From Halobacteria archaeon AArc-dxtr1 (GTDB taxonomy: Archaea; Halobacteriota; Halobacteria; Halobacteriales; Natrialbaceae): a stretch of 64,000 bases of DNA. The position numbers were made by a program, and so were the translations under genes. Positions 42,039 through 50,284 of the stretch are shown in pieces. Numbering within the stretch: position 1 is the stretch's first letter; every line of letters begins with the position of its first letter. The notes beneath the pieces were generated by a model. The model made no database searches. It worked only from the letters and a program-made list of their open reading frames with translations, and was not told the origin of the DNA. Location of the stretch: assembly GCA_025517425.1 (NCBI GenBank), contig JAOPJY010000005.1, positions 1-64,000 on the forward strand. Reading direction: 5' to 3'.

Positions 42039-42084
42039 TTTGTGTGGTGTTGTTTTCCAGTCCAGAAAACCACAACAACACAAA
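42039..42084. other. Candidate recombinase core site
   Basis: Imperfect inverted arms TTTGTGTGGTGTTGTTTTC (42039-42057) and GAAAACCACAACAACACAAA (42065-42084) flank a 7-base centre CAGTCCA. Inverted arms around a 6-8 base spacer is the form of tyrosine recombinase core sites, and the recombinase gene begins 165 bases away. It could instead be a transcription terminator or operator. Confidence 0.35.
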
Positions 42085-42227
42085 ATTCCTGACTCTGATG
42101 CTCTCAGGGAATAAACTCTATGCCACTATACTATTTTTCTCGTTGAGCGTTGCGAATACTCCCATATCTGTGCACGAGATCTCCGCTAATCTGGGTCTAC
42201 ATCTAGATTTCGAACACAAATAGGACA

Positions 42228-42264
42228 CTCACAACTGCCACTCATTTGTCGAGTGGCAGTTGTG
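42228..42264 (-). terminator. Strong hairpin after the transposase gene
   Basis: A perfect 14-bp stem CACAACTGCCACTC (42230-42243) / GAGTGGCAGTTGTG (42251-42264) with a 7-base loop lies 72 bases after the transposase stop. It could end transposase transcription or block read-through from outside; no long T-run follows. Confidence 0.5.
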
Positions 42265-42335
42265 TGAGGAATTCTGAAGAAAGTTGGTCGTTTGGACAGC
42301 GATGCCTCTCACAAGGGGCAGACACGGAGTGGGTT

Positions 42336-44090
42336 TCACAGCAATTCAATCAACCTCCGATTGAGAAAGCCACGAAACCGCGGGGCCGTGACCCGCGGTT
42401 TCGTGCGGAACTCGACGATATCGAGTACTGTCTGAACGAGGAAGTCTACCAGCAGCCACATATCGTACAACAGGACGGCGAAGCCGAAGTGGAACAACCG
42501 CACTGAGAAGTTCCTCGAAGTCGTCCACGGTGCGAACTCTTTGATGCTGCTGTAGGCGTTTTCGATTCCGCCCCGCCGGGTATATCGTTTGATCTTCTTG
42601 CGAGTCTGGCGACGATCGAGACCAATCTCGTCGTTCACGGCGAGATTGGTCAGGAATACCTGGCACTCATCACGATCCTCGTCCGGTGGCAGTCCAACCA
42701 ACGTCGTCTCTGCCCTGCTATTGGTTACTCCATTTTTCACTGGACCGTGCATTGCGTGCTCTTCTTTCACCATGACTTCGTCGCCCATTCGCGCGATGAA
42801 CCGCTTGACGCGGTCATCGCGCTTGGCTGGAATCACATAGAAGAGGTTCCGCTCCTCAAGCGCCGATACGACGTCTGTCGCGTGGAACCACCGATCTGCA
42901 TAGACTCGCCACACGCTAAGACGAGCTCGGTTTTCGACGATGTCCACGAGCCGGCGGACGATCCCGCCGGCTCGGTGAGACTTGTCTTCGCCAGGATACG
43001 CTTCAGGATCGTGATTATCGGCGTTCCCGACTGGGACCATCGCGACCGCGAACTGAACGTTGTCCCCGACAACGTTCGCAGTCGCGAACTTGTGACACCA
43101 GTCGTACTCCTTATCTTCGGGCGCTCCTTGCACTCGAACCAGTTCCTCGCGCTCACCCGAGTAGGCGACGTAGGTCATATCGATCGCGAGCATGATCGGC
43201 CGCTCGAACTCAACAGATGGCTTGGCCCGCGTCAAGACGCGGGTCAAGCCGTGATTGACCATCTCCGCAATCTCCGACGGTTCGAGGTCTTTAATCGCCG
43301 TTAACAGGGTTTCTCCAGTCGGTCCATCCTCGAAGAACGGATCGCCGAGGTCAGGATCAGGATTAACCTGATCGCCGTAGGTCTCGGCACCGCCGTTGGC
43401 GGCGGTGCCTGTGATCCCGAGTAACGTCTCTAACCGCAGCAATTCCTCGTCGTCGTAGATAGATCCGCTTGGACGGTCAAAGTCGAACGCTGGGAACACG
43501 ACGGTTGTGAGTTCGTTGAGGAGTTCGCGAGTTTTTCCTCGAATGAGTCGGTTGACCGTACGCTTCGAGGAGCCCGCGGGCTCCTCGCAAGCGTCCTCTG
43601 TGTATGGCGAACCGATCGGACTGCCTCGCCTAGCGGCAAGTGTCCGAATTTGGCGTACACACACCGCGATCGTCGTCTGTAACCCTTGGAAACGGCTTTG
43701 TCGCGCACGCGTGATCGTGCTTCGATCAGGGATATCAGTCGGATCAAATCCAAGCGCAATGGCGACCGACGAATCGGTAGTAAGCGTCCGATGCACGGCA
43801 GCATCGGACGCGTCCTCGAGTTCACGGAGGAGAACCGTCCGAAGCATTGGTTCGAACGGCTTGGACTCGTGCCACTCTGGGTATGCGTCGTCTCGTGTGT
43901 AGGAACTGAGATCGAGATGAGAGACGAGATCAACCGCAGAGGCCGTCTCGTCGACGACCTCTGCGGCCTGCTTGGTCAACGGATGCCAACCGCCTGAGAG
44001 GGAATCGTTATTTTGGAGGCGCTCATCAACGGATCGTGGGTCGCGGCTGTCTTCAGCAGCCGCGACCCAATCTGACCGATTTGTGACCAC
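42336..44090 (-). CDS. DDE transposase of the insertion sequence
   Basis: 584 residues, GTG start at 44090. A helical N-terminal DNA-binding region (RSTITRARQSRFQGLQTTIA near 120) precedes the DDE catalytic core: DMTYVAYSGERE near 300, YADRWFHATDVVSALEERNL near 400 and the Y-x2-R-x3-E-like box YTRRGGIENAYSSIKEF near 520. A hydrophobic C-terminal segment (LFHFGFAVLLYDMWLLVDF) is typical of IS4-like haloarchaeal transposases. The gene is intact and its ends are intact, so the element may be active. Its coding sequence contains an exceptional series of long palindromes. Confidence 0.85.
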   Translation of the reverse strand: MVTNRSDWVAAAEDSRDPRSVDERLQNNDSLSGGWHPLTKQAAEVVDETASAVDLVSHLDLSSYTRDDAYPEWHESKPFEPMLRTVLLRELEDASDAAVHRTLTTDSSVAIALGFDPTDIPDRSTITRARQSRFQGLQTTIAVCVRQIRTLAARRGSPIGSPYTEDACEEPAGSSKRTVNRLIRGKTRELLNELTTVVFPAFDFDRPSGSIYDDEELLRLETLLGITGTAANGGAETYGDQVNPDPDLGDPFFEDGPTGETLLTAIKDLEPSEIAEMVNHGLTRVLTRAKPSVEFERPIMLAIDMTYVAYSGEREELVRVQGAPEDKEYDWCHKFATANVVGDNVQFAVAMVPVGNADNHDPEAYPGEDKSHRAGGIVRRLVDIVENRARLSVWRVYADRWFHATDVVSALEERNLFYVIPAKRDDRVKRFIARMGDEVMVKEEHAMHGPVKNGVTNSRAETTLVGLPPDEDRDECQVFLTNLAVNDEIGLDRRQTRKKIKRYTRRGGIENAYSSIKEFAPWTTSRNFSVRLFHFGFAVLLYDMWLLVDFLVQTVLDIVEFRTKPRVTAPRFRGFLNRRLIELL

Positions 44091-44120
44091 TCGGGGGACT
44101 GTTCGTCCCCCATCGGTCAG
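42371..44120. repeat. Series of long palindromes within the transposase gene
   Basis: Stems (left/right): 42371-42384/42392-42405 (14 bp); 42620-42630/42641-42651 (11); 42947-42957/42964-42974 (11); 43055-43064/43068-43077 (10); 43219-43233/43236-43250 (15, one mismatch); 43386-43395/43400-43409 (10); 43566-43576/43577-43587 (11, no loop); 43784-43794/43801-43811 (11); 43934-43942/43958-43966 (9); 44037-44049/44057-44069 (13); 44072-44080/44112-44120 (9) enclosing 44093-44099/44105-44111 (7). All others are perfect. None share sequence. Confidence 0.85.
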
Positions 44121-44265
44121 TGTATCGATGTATCCCGTGCACAGATTCTGTCGTTCGCAACGCTACTCTCGTAGTCAGTTGTGAATGACGCCGGAAGCGT
44201 TCACGAGATCTCCCAGTTACTGCGAGTTTACAGATCTCCGAGTAGATCTACCAGTGCCCGATGAG

Positions 44266-45428: not shown

Positions 45429-45448
45429 AGAGTACATTGACAGGTACA

Positions 45449-48400
45449 ATGAGCAGTACGACGGAAAAGTGGGAGTTCGAAAATGCCCCTCCAGAATCCA
45501 AGGAAGTGGCCCAAGAGATTCTCGAACGGGTTCAGGAACGCCAACAGCATCTGAAAGCGGAGACGCCGACGGACCAACAGCAGAAGCTACGGCGGATGAG
45601 TGATGAGATCTTGAAGAATCTTGATGATGCCTCCCAAGTCGTCCCTGAACTCCTCCAGAATGCTGATGACGTCGGTGGTGAATGTACTGCAGCCACACTT
45701 CGCCTCACGGAGGAGGAGTTCAACATCGAGAATCACAAGGAGCCGATGACGGCTGACCAAGTCGCCGCACTCGGCGAGTTTACAGCAAGTACGAAGCACG
45801 ACCTCTCGTATATTGGCCACTTCGGAATTGGATTCAAGACGATTTTCAGCGTCACCGACAATCCACAAATTGAGACAGGCTATTTCGCGTTCCAGTATGA
45901 CAGGGATGACCCGGAACTGCCTCAAAAACAACCCGGTGACGACCTCCCGTTCGAGGGAACCAAGGTTCGACTTCCGTTCAAACCGGACCTCCCAGATACA
46001 CGCAGGAAGGCACTCAAATCAAAGCTGGAATCGATCGAACGGTTACTCCCATTCCTGAACAATCTAGAAACGATTCGTGTCGAGGTTGAGGGGGAGACGA
46101 CTACTTACGAACGCAGGGAGACCCAGAAGAACGTCCACGAGGTACGGAAATCCTCACCAAATAGTGATGAGTCTTCGAGTATCGATCGGTATCGGCTGTT
46201 TACTACCGTTTTAGACTCCGATAAGGAGACACTCGAGATGATCGCCAAGGAACGTGATTTTGAAACGGCGGATCTCAACGACCGATCCATTGAACTTACA
46301 GTGTCTATCGCGATCCCTGTCGACGAGTCAGGAAGACCGATATCCCATTCTGATAGCCGACTCTTCTGTTATTTCCCCGCGAGTCAAACGACTGGATTGC
46401 CGTTCGATGTGCAGGCGGATTTCCTCTTGAAGTCTAACCGCCAACAGATTCGGCCGGGACATCCACTGAATGACCGATTCCTGAGAGCTGCAGGCGAGAT
46501 ACTCGACACTGCAATTACCACGTTCCATGCCGAACAGGTCGCCTCAGAGACGATCCTCGAACTTATTCCGGACCCAAATCCGGCGCAAGATCGCCCTGCA
46601 TATCTCACTCCGCTTCTTGACCATGCCTACACGCAGATAGAGGGGCAGGCAATCGTCCCGAATGAGTCGGGGGACCTCTTTCAGCCAAAAGAGATCGTCA
46701 TTCTACCGGAGGCACTACGGTCGGTACTTCCGTTACAGGAGTTCGCGAATGCATATGGGGATGTCGACGCTCATCCGACTCCCGACCTAGGTAACGAGAT
46801 TTACGACCGACTCTGTGCTCTCGATGGGACGACAGACCTCTCTGTTGCCGAGACGCTCGAACAACTTCAGGATATGGTCGTCCTCGATGACCTAACAATT
46901 CCAGAGATTATCAAATTGCTAGGGGCAATCGAGGAATATCTTAGTGGGAATTCGTTTTCGAGATATCCGTCTACCGAGGAGAGAAAGGAAATCAAGCGCA
47001 TCGAGTCAGCACTCCGATCACTTGCAATCTTCCCGTTCCAAGGTGGAGATGAACCGGGTGTCCGGGAAGCACTAACGGATGTTGGAGACAACATCTACCT
47101 TCCAGCGCAACAGAACGAATCTGCATACGAACCATTCTATGAGGATCTTGACCTACTGAGTGGCGAGTTCGTAGCGGAGTTGGAATCGACCCAGACGGTC
47201 TCTAAATCCACAGCCGGACGTGCAAAGGATCTCCTTTCGGAGCGGTTGGGAATCGATTCCCTCCAACACAGGGATATTGTACGTAATGTCATCAATGAGG
47301 CATACTCGGAGCCAGAAGCCCACCGAAATGAGCTTCTGGATGACTATCTCAGATACATCAAGAAACGATCCGGAACCCTAACCGAGATCGCAAAGATTCA
47401 GCTCAGAACAGAGGATGGCGAATACGCACGACCAGAGGACCTCTATCTCCCCTCGGAGTATAACGAAGGCCGTTACGATTCAAGTCTTGTCTTAGGCACG
47501 CTCACCTCTAAAACACCGGTAACGCCCTCGTATATCGATGGTGACGACACCGGCGGTGGCGTGGATGGCGGTGAACAATCTTGGCGTGAGTTTCTTGCAG
47601 AACTTGGTGTCCAAGACTGCATTCACGTCCATAAGAACCCTAAACACTGCAATAGAGTTACCTTTGATTCTGAGGAGGAGATCCAGGATTTCCTCGACGA
47701 GCATGACGATGAGGGCACAGCTATTCGAATCGATACCGATCTAGCGCCCTACAATGGCCGAGGATGCAGTTGGATGAAACGAGAGAATGCCCAGCATGGA
47801 CTCGTCGACTACGCCTTGGACGAGGAGGTTACACAAGCGTTCAGAGACGCAACCGAGACAAACACTGGATTTGGTCGGGAGTTCGCCCGAATGCTCGATA
47901 CGTACTGGGAAGACACCTACAGCGATTGCTTCTATCGCGACTACTGCTATTCTATTCCAAATAACGGGTATGAGGTAAAAACTGAGGACAGTGCATGCCC
48001 GACGACGTTTGGGCAGCTACTTCGATCCGTCTCATGGCTTCCGGGAGGCGATGGAGAACTCCATCGACCAGCTCATCTATTTCAACGGAATTCTGTCACC
48101 GAGGAGGCTGACGTGACTCACATTGCCGAAGTAATCGAATCTGTTTCGGCGGATCTTCTCAATACACTTGGAGTTCGTGATGATGTCGGCATTACGGAGC
48201 ACCAAATCGGTATTGAAAGACTGGTCGAGTCTCGCAAGGAACGTGATGCCGACGAATTGAACCGGGAGATTCGCTCCCACCTGCACTCGCTTGCGAAGCA
48301 GATCAAGACCGCACCCGAAGGAAAGCGAAACGAGGTAATTGATCGTCTTCGAGAGTGCGCATTTATCTACATCCCAAATGCCGATCCTGCGTTCCGAACA

Positions 48401-50284
48401 CCCGCTGAGGTCACATGGAGTGGGGACTTAGGCGACTATGTCGTCCCGATTAAAGACGAGTATCGAGGATTCCAGGACCTCTTCGTCGACATTTTCGATA
48501 TCGGAATTGACCCTGCACTGGAAACGTATATCGAGTTTCTCGCACAGGCAGATGACGACGCGTGGAGCACCGTCGAAGAGGCATGGCGATCTATCGTGAA
48601 TCAAGTCGCTCACAACGAGTCAATAGACCGCGAGCTAGACGACATCGCCAATGAGCTTGCTGCAGCCGATGCACTTCCGAATGCTAACGAGGAACTTGTC
48701 CAGTACGACGACATTGAATTCGTTGCGCGAGGACCAGGGTTTACAGAAATGCTACCGAATAAAATCGCGGCAAAAGTAGTCTTCCCGTGGTATGACGCTC
48801 GATACAGCCGTGGGAAAGCTATCAATCGGTTAGTGGCGGTTCTCGATGCTGAACCACTTGAGACAGCTCTGACACAGGAGGTCGCATATCCGGAATACGA
48901 AATCGGTGGTGAGTGCCTATATAACGAATTTAAGGAGTCTCTCGATGTTGGCTACAGCGTTCTAGAATCCAGGGAACAAGGAGCCGCAGCGGATCTACTC
49001 GCATCGACTTCCATGTACACGGTTCAACGTCCATCACGTGTTGCATGTAATTACTATCTCAATGGGCGGCGAGCAGTCTCAAATCACGAAGAAACGATTT
49101 TCATCGATGAAGATGCCGAGCATGTGCTCCTTGCGAACGAGGACGTCGCACAGCTCGATCTCATCGATTCGCTGGCCGCCTCTCTCGACCTCACTGGTGC
49201 CGACAAAAATCGGTATACTCAGTTATCCAAGGGGGCGATCGGTAAACCAGAAGGACTCATCGAAGCCTATCTCGACGGAGAAGCGATTCAACATTCTTCG
49301 ATTGTGGATGATTATCCAGCACTCTCTCAGAGTCATAGCTCCCCCCAAACTACGCCTGATGAGAACAGTGTGAAGGATACGCAGAATGCCAACCAGAATG
49401 ATGGAGATAATTCAGAAGCCGGAACAAGCAATGATAGACAAGGTTCTGAGCCACAACCAACCAGTTCTCTGAACCAATCCAAGAAGCCGAGTTCGACAAA
49501 CGATCGAGCAACTGGTTCGGGACTGTCTTCCAGTTTGCCGGAATCACATTCCTCCACGAACGGAAGAACAGGAGAAAAGAGGTCGTCTCTGCGCCAGTCT
49601 CAGGGAGCGGACTCGACTTCATCTCAGACTGAACGAGACGGGAATCCATCGTCATCGGGTGACTCAACTCGTACAAAACAAGCCCATACAAGTAATTCGA
49701 AGAACAAGCCCAGAAACCACCGAAAAACCACGGCAAAGGCAAAACAGAACGGATCCCATGGCGGGTGGCCCGGTGGAGGTGGGGGACAAGCCAACGAAAT
49801 TGGAGATGAGGGTGAGGCCTTTGCGATGACTCATTTGAAAAGGGTCATTACGGACTATTTCGACTCCGAACCAACAGTCGACGAATCATCGTCCGTCATC
49901 AAACTCTCAGGCAAGTACGATTGCGAGCGATGTAACGTCAAGATTCGTGATGTATCGCGCGAGCGCGGGCGTGGCTATGATATTCACGTTGGTGGTGCTG
50001 CTCTTGTCTGGAATGGGGACACTCTCGCAGTAGAATCAATTGGCGACGGCTTAGAGGCTTGTATCGAAGTGAAGGCAACGAAACGACAGGACCGCCAGTT
50101 TGGAATGACAAGGCATGAGCATCAGGTCGCCCAGAAAGAGCATGGCAATTATTTCGTCGTTCGAGTCATCAATGCGCTGGATGATCCAAGCGTCACAACG
50201 GTTTTCGATGATATTCCGGAAGTTGAAGAGGCTGAGGGCGAGCGGCTAACTGTTGTTCCCTCCAGATTCATCGTCAAGTTCTGA
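45449..50284 (+). CDS. Giant sacsin-like GHKL ATPase with C-terminal DUF3883 domain
   Basis: 1611 residues from ATG 45449. The N-terminus is a GHKL/Hsp90-type ATPase as in sacsin: ELLQNADD near 68 (N box), ALGEFTASTKHDLSYIGHFG and GIGFKTIFSVTD near 125 (G box). A long middle of about 1150 residues has no named domain. A Ser/Asn/Gln-rich disordered linker (about 1290-1440) leads to a Gly-rich hinge and a DUF3883-type domain with CIEVKATKRQDRQFGMTRHE near 1540, a PD-(D/E)XK-like nuclease pattern (E-x-K) often found in restriction-type proteins. Likely an NTP-dependent defence protein acting with the divergent metallopeptidase; this is inference. Confidence 0.85.
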   Translation: MSSTTEKWEFENAPPESKEVAQEILERVQERQQHLKAETPTDQQQKLRRMSDEILKNLDDASQVVPELLQNADDVGGECTAATLRLTEEEFNIENHKEPMTADQVAALGEFTASTKHDLSYIGHFGIGFKTIFSVTDNPQIETGYFAFQYDRDDPELPQKQPGDDLPFEGTKVRLPFKPDLPDTRRKALKSKLESIERLLPFLNNLETIRVEVEGETTTYERRETQKNVHEVRKSSPNSDESSSIDRYRLFTTVLDSDKETLEMIAKERDFETADLNDRSIELTVSIAIPVDESGRPISHSDSRLFCYFPASQTTGLPFDVQADFLLKSNRQQIRPGHPLNDRFLRAAGEILDTAITTFHAEQVASETILELIPDPNPAQDRPAYLTPLLDHAYTQIEGQAIVPNESGDLFQPKEIVILPEALRSVLPLQEFANAYGDVDAHPTPDLGNEIYDRLCALDGTTDLSVAETLEQLQDMVVLDDLTIPEIIKLLGAIEEYLSGNSFSRYPSTEERKEIKRIESALRSLAIFPFQGGDEPGVREALTDVGDNIYLPAQQNESAYEPFYEDLDLLSGEFVAELESTQTVSKSTAGRAKDLLSERLGIDSLQHRDIVRNVINEAYSEPEAHRNELLDDYLRYIKKRSGTLTEIAKIQLRTEDGEYARPEDLYLPSEYNEGRYDSSLVLGTLTSKTPVTPSYIDGDDTGGGVDGGEQSWREFLAELGVQDCIHVHKNPKHCNRVTFDSEEEIQDFLDEHDDEGTAIRIDTDLAPYNGRGCSWMKRENAQHGLVDYALDEEVTQAFRDATETNTGFGREFARMLDTYWEDTYSDCFYRDYCYSIPNNGYEVKTEDSACPTTFGQLLRSVSWLPGGDGELHRPAHLFQRNSVTEEADVTHIAEVIESVSADLLNTLGVRDDVGITEHQIGIERLVESRKERDADELNREIRSHLHSLAKQIKTAPEGKRNEVIDRLRECAFIYIPNADPAFRTPAEVTWSGDLGDYVVPIKDEYRGFQDLFVDIFDIGIDPALETYIEFLAQADDDAWSTVEEAWRSIVNQVAHNESIDRELDDIANELAAADALPNANEELVQYDDIEFVARGPGFTEMLPNKIAAKVVFPWYDARYSRGKAINRLVAVLDAEPLETALTQEVAYPEYEIGGECLYNEFKESLDVGYSVLESREQGAAADLLASTSMYTVQRPSRVACNYYLNGRRAVSNHEETIFIDEDAEHVLLANEDVAQLDLIDSLAASLDLTGADKNRYTQLSKGAIGKPEGLIEAYLDGEAIQHSSIVDDYPALSQSHSSPQTTPDENSVKDTQNANQNDGDNSEAGTSNDRQGSEPQPTSSLNQSKKPSSTNDRATGSGLSSSLPESHSSTNGRTGEKRSSLRQSQGADSTSSQTERDGNPSSSGDSTRTKQAHTSNSKNKPRNHRKTTAKAKQNGSHGGWPGGGGGQANEIGDEGEAFAMTHLKRVITDYFDSEPTVDESSSVIKLSGKYDCERCNVKIRDVSRERGRGYDIHVGGAALVWNGDTLAVESIGDGLEACIEVKATKRQDRQFGMTRHEHQVAQKEHGNYFVVRVINALDDPSVTTVFDDIPEVEEAEGERLTVVPSRFIVKF

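Follow-up and report, generated by a model that had tools for sequence, protein, structure and literature searches.

The window, by which we mean the whole stretch of 64,000 nucleotides of Halobacteria archaeon AArc-dxtr1 that was analysed, contains a complete insertion sequence (Table 1). Its transposase matches PF01609 above the cut-off, and the element combines this DDE domain with terminal inverted repeats and a target-site duplication, as DDE insertion sequences do. The duplication is 6 bp long in the window element and 6-7 bp in the other copies, as against direct repeats of 4-5 bp in the ISH3 family (PMC2266710), so that the repeats do not place the element in ISH3. The profile of that family, NF033541, scored 90.7 bits over residues 254-548, under its cut-off of 225 bits, and the IS1182 family profile NF033551 reached 27 bits over the N-terminal part only, under a cut-off of 270 bits. 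In a pairwise comparison, ISH7A is 24% identical to the window transposase over 588 aa (E 2e-27) and, judged by this similarity, the window transposase is a distant homolog of ISH7A.

Several observations concern the surroundings of the element and of its copies. In Natribaculum breve, three W-type copies (loci L001, L002 and L003, ~2415-2440) lie 11 bp past the end of a related element of the 72% type, and the bases between them and the end of this relative differ; the arrangement suggests repeated insertion beside the terminal repeat of the relative. In locus L004 (4143-5595), a W-type copy is broken by a palindrome-rich element with marginal similarity to Mutator/IS256. The insertion sites of seven copies did not look palindromic by eye, and targeting of palindromes by the transposase was hence rejected. 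Outside the element, an 18-bp imperfect inverted repeat (window 42039-42084) is found between it and a tyrosine integrase-like gene, and a nearby reading frame (window 45437-50284) encodes a 1615-aa protein whose N-terminus, judged by eye, appears to be an HSP90-like ATPase; the gene is a candidate for a role in defence or of the chaperone type.

Table 1. Features of the insertion sequence and hairpin stems in and around its transposase gene (positions in the window)
Feature	Position	Strand	Basis
Complete 2023-bp insertion sequence carrying terminal inverted repeats	42144-44166	-	Boundaries against Natribaculum breve copies, 94% identical
Insertion-sequence ends, ..GCGTTGCGAA / TTCGCAACGCTAC	42144-44166	-	Comparison with N. 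breve copies
Target-site duplication TCTCGT, left copy	42138-42143	.	Read off sequence
Target-site duplication TCTCGT, right copy	44167-44172	.	Read off sequence
Terminal inverted repeat, left, outer part, GCGTTGCGAA	42147-42156	+	
Terminal inverted repeat, right, outer part	44154-44163	-	
Terminal inverted repeat, inner part, ATCTGTGCACGAGAT	42166-42180	+	93% match to 44132-44146
Terminal inverted repeat, right, inner part	44132-44146	-	Partner of 42166-42180
Transposase gene, 584 aa, 1755 bp, DUF772 + DDE_Tnp_1, GTG start	42336-44090	-	Domain scan
Stem 7 bp, loop 5, immediately 5' of start codon	44093-44111	-	
Stem 13 bp, loop 7	44037-44069	-	
Perfect 9-bp stem, 14 bp if one mismatch is allowed; loop 5	43934-43966	-	
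Stem 11 bp, loop 6; in 22/22 clade-A genes covering the site	43784-43811	-	
Palindrome, stem 11 bp, loop 0	43566-43587	-	
Stem 10 bp, loop 4; perfect in 24/24 clade-A genes	43386-43409	-	
Stem 8 bp, loop 2; reaches 15 bp (43219-43250) if one mismatch is allowed	43226-43243	-	
Stem 10 bp, loop 3	43055-43077	-	
Stem 11 bp, loop 6; clade A shows compensatory pairs here	42947-42974	-	
Stem 9 bp, loop 14 enclosing another 4-bp stem	42791-42822	-	
Stem 11 bp, loop 10; reaches 15 bp, loop 2, if one mismatch is allowed	42620-42651	-	
Stem 14 bp, loop 7, close to gene end	42371-42405	-	
Stem 14 bp, loop 7, noncoding, 3' of stop codon; identical in N. breve copies	42230-42264	-	

The preliminary description of this DNA had reported at least eleven different palindromes in the transposase gene and an additional 14-bp stem beyond it, and had considered the series non-random. 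All of this held. The array was found in place, as was the stem past the stop codon: with loops of 0-15 bases, the gene contains 10 perfect stems of 9 bp or more that do not overlap, or 11 when the minimum is set at 8 bp, and they are not copies of one repeat. In-frame inserts of the kind known from Rickettsia, which are copies of one palindromic repeat, were rejected because the stems differ and most align without indels. As a control we permuted synonymous codons within the gene, which keeps the protein, the codon usage and the GC content (60 shuffles). Stems of at least 9 bp, of which the gene has 10, came to a mean of 0.12 and a maximum of 1 in the shuffles, while the 8 stems of at least 10 bp compare with a mean of 0.05; outside the element, a 464-kb sample of the same genome yields 0.09 such stems per 1755 nt. 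The gene therefore shows the excess over codon-shuffled controls that is looked for in a selected coding structure. Furthermore, stem centres are fairly evenly placed, the coefficient of variation of the gaps averaging 0.45 across families versus 0.67 for random placement.

To place the array in its family, 59 homologs were collected and a tree was built. Arrays occur in two non-sister clades, A (which includes the window gene; 68-100% identity) and B (~38% identity to the window gene). In both, every member carries 6-13 stems that reach 8 bp or more, including 4-9 that reach 10 bp or more, where ~0.6 is expected. In the remaining clades the count at 8 bp or more is 0 or 1, though some of them (42-48% identity) are nearer to clade A than clade B is. 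The alignment columns that hold stems are mostly common within a clade and differ between A and B. As the two clades are not sisters either, at least two origins of arrays within the family are most likely. Stems also turn over within clade A, where one site is found in three registers across three subclades. A search of viral contigs for relatives found none.

The rationale of our test for selection is that synonymous sites in the arms should diverge less than those elsewhere if pairing matters. We compared third positions of codons that are fourfold degenerate and agree in their first two bases, pairwise and binned by protein identity. Among clade-A pairs at 90-99.5% identity, 7 of 917 stem sites differ (0.8%), versus 644 of 4078 outside (15.8%); at 75-90% the figures are 104/1406 (7.4%) and 2755/5796 (47.5%), and at 60-75% they are 843/6361 (13.3%) and 12395/21702 (57.1%). 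Loops of clade A resemble the sites outside, with 12%, 36% and 50% divergence in the same three bins. In clade B the stems diverge by 21% and the outside sites by 43% at 75-90% identity, whereas the contrast is absent from the closest pairs, which are few (13/267 in stems, 65/1146 outside). The reduction of synonymous divergence in stems is thus clear for clade A and, for clade B, in its more distant pairs.

Changes on both sides of a pair that keep Watson-Crick pairing tell the same story of constraint. Clade A has 22 such pairs in 72 cells, where shuffled columns give a mean of 26 cells and a maximum of 35, and clade B has 15 pairs in 34 cells (shuffled mean 14, maximum 22); in clade B the pair count equals the shuffle maximum, and the cell count is stronger but inflated by related sequences. 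When one arm was slid along the other, pairing fell from ~84% to 20-32%, so that compensatory changes stand out against both shuffled and slid controls. Moreover, pairs that join two fourfold third positions, and would hence be free to drift together under arm-to-arm correction, are conserved too, with ~13% divergence per site versus 57% outside. Taken together, the low fourfold divergence, the excess of compensatory changes and the conservation of these freely varying pairs show that pairing itself is selected, and that purifying selection at synonymous sites maintains an array of short, near-perfect hairpins. The expectation that relatives would retain the stems through paired changes was borne out by the alignments, with the addition that the arms are very low in synonymous divergence, and the related claim that codons had been shaped to make the palindromes is supported by these two results and by the shuffles.

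We then looked at how widely such arrays are distributed, with sampling that is uneven and follows sequence matches, reading frames that were taken mechanically, and IS family names that, for unannotated loci, rest on Pfam or NCBIfam. About 100 of the 841 non-redundant reading frames in the fetched loci carry dense stems, and the palindrome-rich frames form 31 clusters at 50% identity. With each cluster represented by a single gene, most stems measure 9-13 bp, and a loop of 6 bases is the most frequent (35 of 136). Stem-bearing haloarchaeal types comprise DDE_Tnp_1 (IS4/ISH8, IS5), ISH3, IS66, IS630, IS240/IS6 and one marginal Mutator match, and IS110 genes are mixed, some having stems. Comparison of 20 unusual stem-dense frames with Pfam returned 16 transposases, one peptidase with three stems and three frames with no match, which are possibly antisense frames of transposases. 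In the organism's own genome, a type IV prepilin peptidase gene (L133 13335-14369) has three stems of at least 9 bp, the only non-transposase to do so among the frames checked.

On pNRC100 of Halobacterium salinarum, the ISH3B, ISH8, ISH27, ISH28, ISH11 and ISH10 transposases all bear stems, and ISH7A, ISH7B and the neighbouring genes have none. Over parts of pNRC100 (50-100 kb) and pNG500 (1-50 kb), transposases contain 55 stems of at least 8 bp versus 6.8 expected, and the other genes 12 versus 9.5 expected. Stems of 10 bp or more are almost absent from haloarchaeal TnpB genes (5 in 30 genes); the TnpB genes of loci L253-L282 have a mild excess of 8-bp stems (36 versus 8.8 expected) with no long ones, perhaps reflecting one conserved structure. 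ISH3 homologs carry 64 stems of at least 10 bp in 15 haloarchaeal genes versus 2 in 16 genes of other Halobacteriota, and in a small bacterial sample (three E. coli, two Salinibacter and three Rhizobium transposases) no stem of this length was seen. Repeated origin of such arrays is thus shown for the DDE transposase genes that haloarchaeal insertion sequences carry.

To distinguish whether the hairpins act as RNA or as DNA, we relied on the expectation that selection on the sense transcript alone would tolerate G-U pairs and not A-C mismatches. A loose count on the alignment, which includes the outer ends of stems, gave 112 G-U versus 115 A-C cells, and single-mismatch hairpins within single sequences gave 17 versus 24. 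A stricter count of unique interior events gave 34 versus 21, which leans towards G-U, but less than ordinary RNA helices would. The shift in local folding energy is equal for the sense and antisense strands, no known stable tetraloop is enriched among the loops, and these have no motif in common. An Rfam scan returned two sub-threshold matches and none at gathering score, so a known RNA family was rejected. Selection on the sense RNA only is not supported by the strand tests, which lean towards DNA or both RNAs but are near neutral overall.

Our leading guess, to which we give a probability of roughly 0.42, is that hairpins in the transcript damp expression of the transposase. Hairpins would form in the transposase mRNA from just 5' of the start codon to past the stop codon, slowing ribosomes and favouring mRNA processing or decay, so that less transposase would be made from an unchanged protein sequence. 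An over-active element would harm its host, and damped lineages would persist; RNA-binding factors such as SmAP1 might relieve the block. In H. salinarum, transposase mRNAs are abundant and 24 of 33 mobilome transcripts bind SmAP1, yet proteins are detected for 4 of the 33, three of them TnpB, and loss of SmAP1 lowers transposition of IS4 and ISH3 elements (PMC10134880). The transposases of Haloquadratum MITEs are supplied in trans, and these elements have only terminal bases in common with their parent, their interiors being unrelated (PMC3119063). Since MITEs move with terminal repeats only, interior palindromes are not needed in cis, and the suggestion that the palindromes serve transposition, in the sense of a required cis role, has become less likely. 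The alternative suggestion made at the outset, that they limit expression, is plausible.

The abundance of mRNA together with the scarcity of protein, the binding of SmAP1, the antisense RNAs known from Haloferax volcanii (below) and the movement of MITEs lacking these interiors are what makes us favour a role in expression. Damping is further supported by the stem excess, the low fourfold divergence, the compensatory changes, the independent clades and the restriction to transposase genes, and we also count in its favour that TnpB genes, the source of three of the four detected proteins, are without arrays. On the other hand, it is weakened by the lack of a clear sign of sense-RNA selection in wobble counts or folding energy, by the absence of an enriched stable tetraloop, and by stems that reach the 3' end of the gene and beyond, where a block to translation matters least. 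Published antisense RNAs and SmAP1 binding could, moreover, explain repression without any hairpin.

The main rival to damping, which we regard as rather unlikely, is that the hairpins act in DNA. They would form wherever repair, replication or strand invasion leaves DNA single-stranded, or would extrude as small cruciforms at the high salt of the cytoplasm, and would hinder RadA filaments or the pairing of dispersed copies, or else attract or repel a host DNA-processing enzyme; harmful recombination between copies would thereby be limited in the polyploid, recombination-rich haloarchaea. Near strand symmetry and near-perfect Watson-Crick pairing fit such a role, and so do the fairly even spacing and the lack of a common loop motif. 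The palindrome-free sister clade is present in one copy per genome in the 14 genomes tested (one has an extra distant match), as against up to 19 matches for clade A in a single genome. On the other side stand the many clade-A genomes with just one copy, and ISH7, which is present twice on pNRC100 without stems. Nor would action in DNA specially predict a concentration in transposase reading frames, and copies of ISH elements often recombine anyway.

Strand symmetry would equally be expected if the hairpins served pairing between sense and antisense RNAs, each transcript folding into mirror hairpins whose loops start or prevent pairing, after the models of IS10 RNA-IN/RNA-OUT and of plasmid copy-number control. 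The commonest loop size of 6 agrees with this. Antisense RNAs to transposases are indeed common in Haloferax volcanii and anticorrelated with the mRNA, rising under oxidative stress as the mRNAs fall, but those reported sit at the 5' UTR (PMC5892119), whereas the stems span the whole gene; we consider this explanation improbable.

Stems could also be made and maintained without selection by a mutational process, such as template switching or arm-to-arm correction of imperfect palindromes. Strand symmetry, the perfection of the stems and their gain and loss within clade A (alignment region 147-207) would follow from it. Yet under such a process pairs of fourfold sites should co-drift freely, and we observed 6 compensatory versus 107 one-sided changes in them, besides their low divergence; for pairs that can vary freely, neutral arm-to-arm correction is hence rejected. 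Such stems are, in addition, missing from other genes of these genomes, which leaves a mutational origin very improbable. Finally, GC-rich genes yield some stems by chance (mean 0.1-1 per gene), but chance, base composition or protein constraint is already refuted, to a negligible residue, by shuffles with the same protein and composition that reach ~1% of the observed count, by homologous proteins of similar GC that have no stems, and by the sample of the organism's own genome.

The proposed damping by transcript hairpins resembles the regulatory mRNA hairpins of IS10, IS50 and IS200, in which RNA structure limits transposase expression. These, however, have one or two 5' structures, whereas here some ten stems cover the whole frame in many families. 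Structure throughout the coding sequence, maintained at synonymous sites, is known from some RNA viruses as genome-scale ordered RNA structure (GORS), but there the genome is RNA, whereas the present case concerns archaeal DNA transposons and short, discrete hairpins that are near-perfect and rather regularly spaced. Palindromes in or near prokaryotic genes are also known from the palindromic elements of Rickettsia and from REP sequences, as copies of one sequence, unlike the stems described here, all of which differ and most of which are not insertions. IS200/IS605 elements carry subterminal hairpins and omega RNA, but at their ends or in a defined RNA, and TnpB genes are without internal arrays. 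As for the nearest relatives, ISH7 (ISNCY) and ISH3 have transposases distantly homologous to that of the window and ISH3 members also carry arrays; ISH7A and ISH7B do not, and the window transposase falls below the ISH3 cut-off. Among the open PubMed Central papers searched, none was found that describes palindrome arrays inside transposase genes.

Because the hairpin arrays are independent of family and, within our sample, specific to one host group, they fit no known system. This points to an unrecognised layer of control or protection written into codons. Tentatively, and with somewhat less than even odds, a host-specific force on the nucleic acid of DDE transposons may operate in haloarchaea, to which unrelated elements would have independently answered with dense hairpin arrays, a general 'hairpin code' by which an element would either escape a host system or be tamed. 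If damping at the RNA level is true, the principle would be a known one in variant form. The signal is strong and reproducible in elements that were sequenced decades ago, such as ISH8 and ISH27, and it offers a clean case of convergent evolution readable in synonymous sites. It also calls for caution, in that synonymous sites of haloarchaeal transposases are not neutral, and it makes testable how archaeal transposons are restrained or protect themselves.
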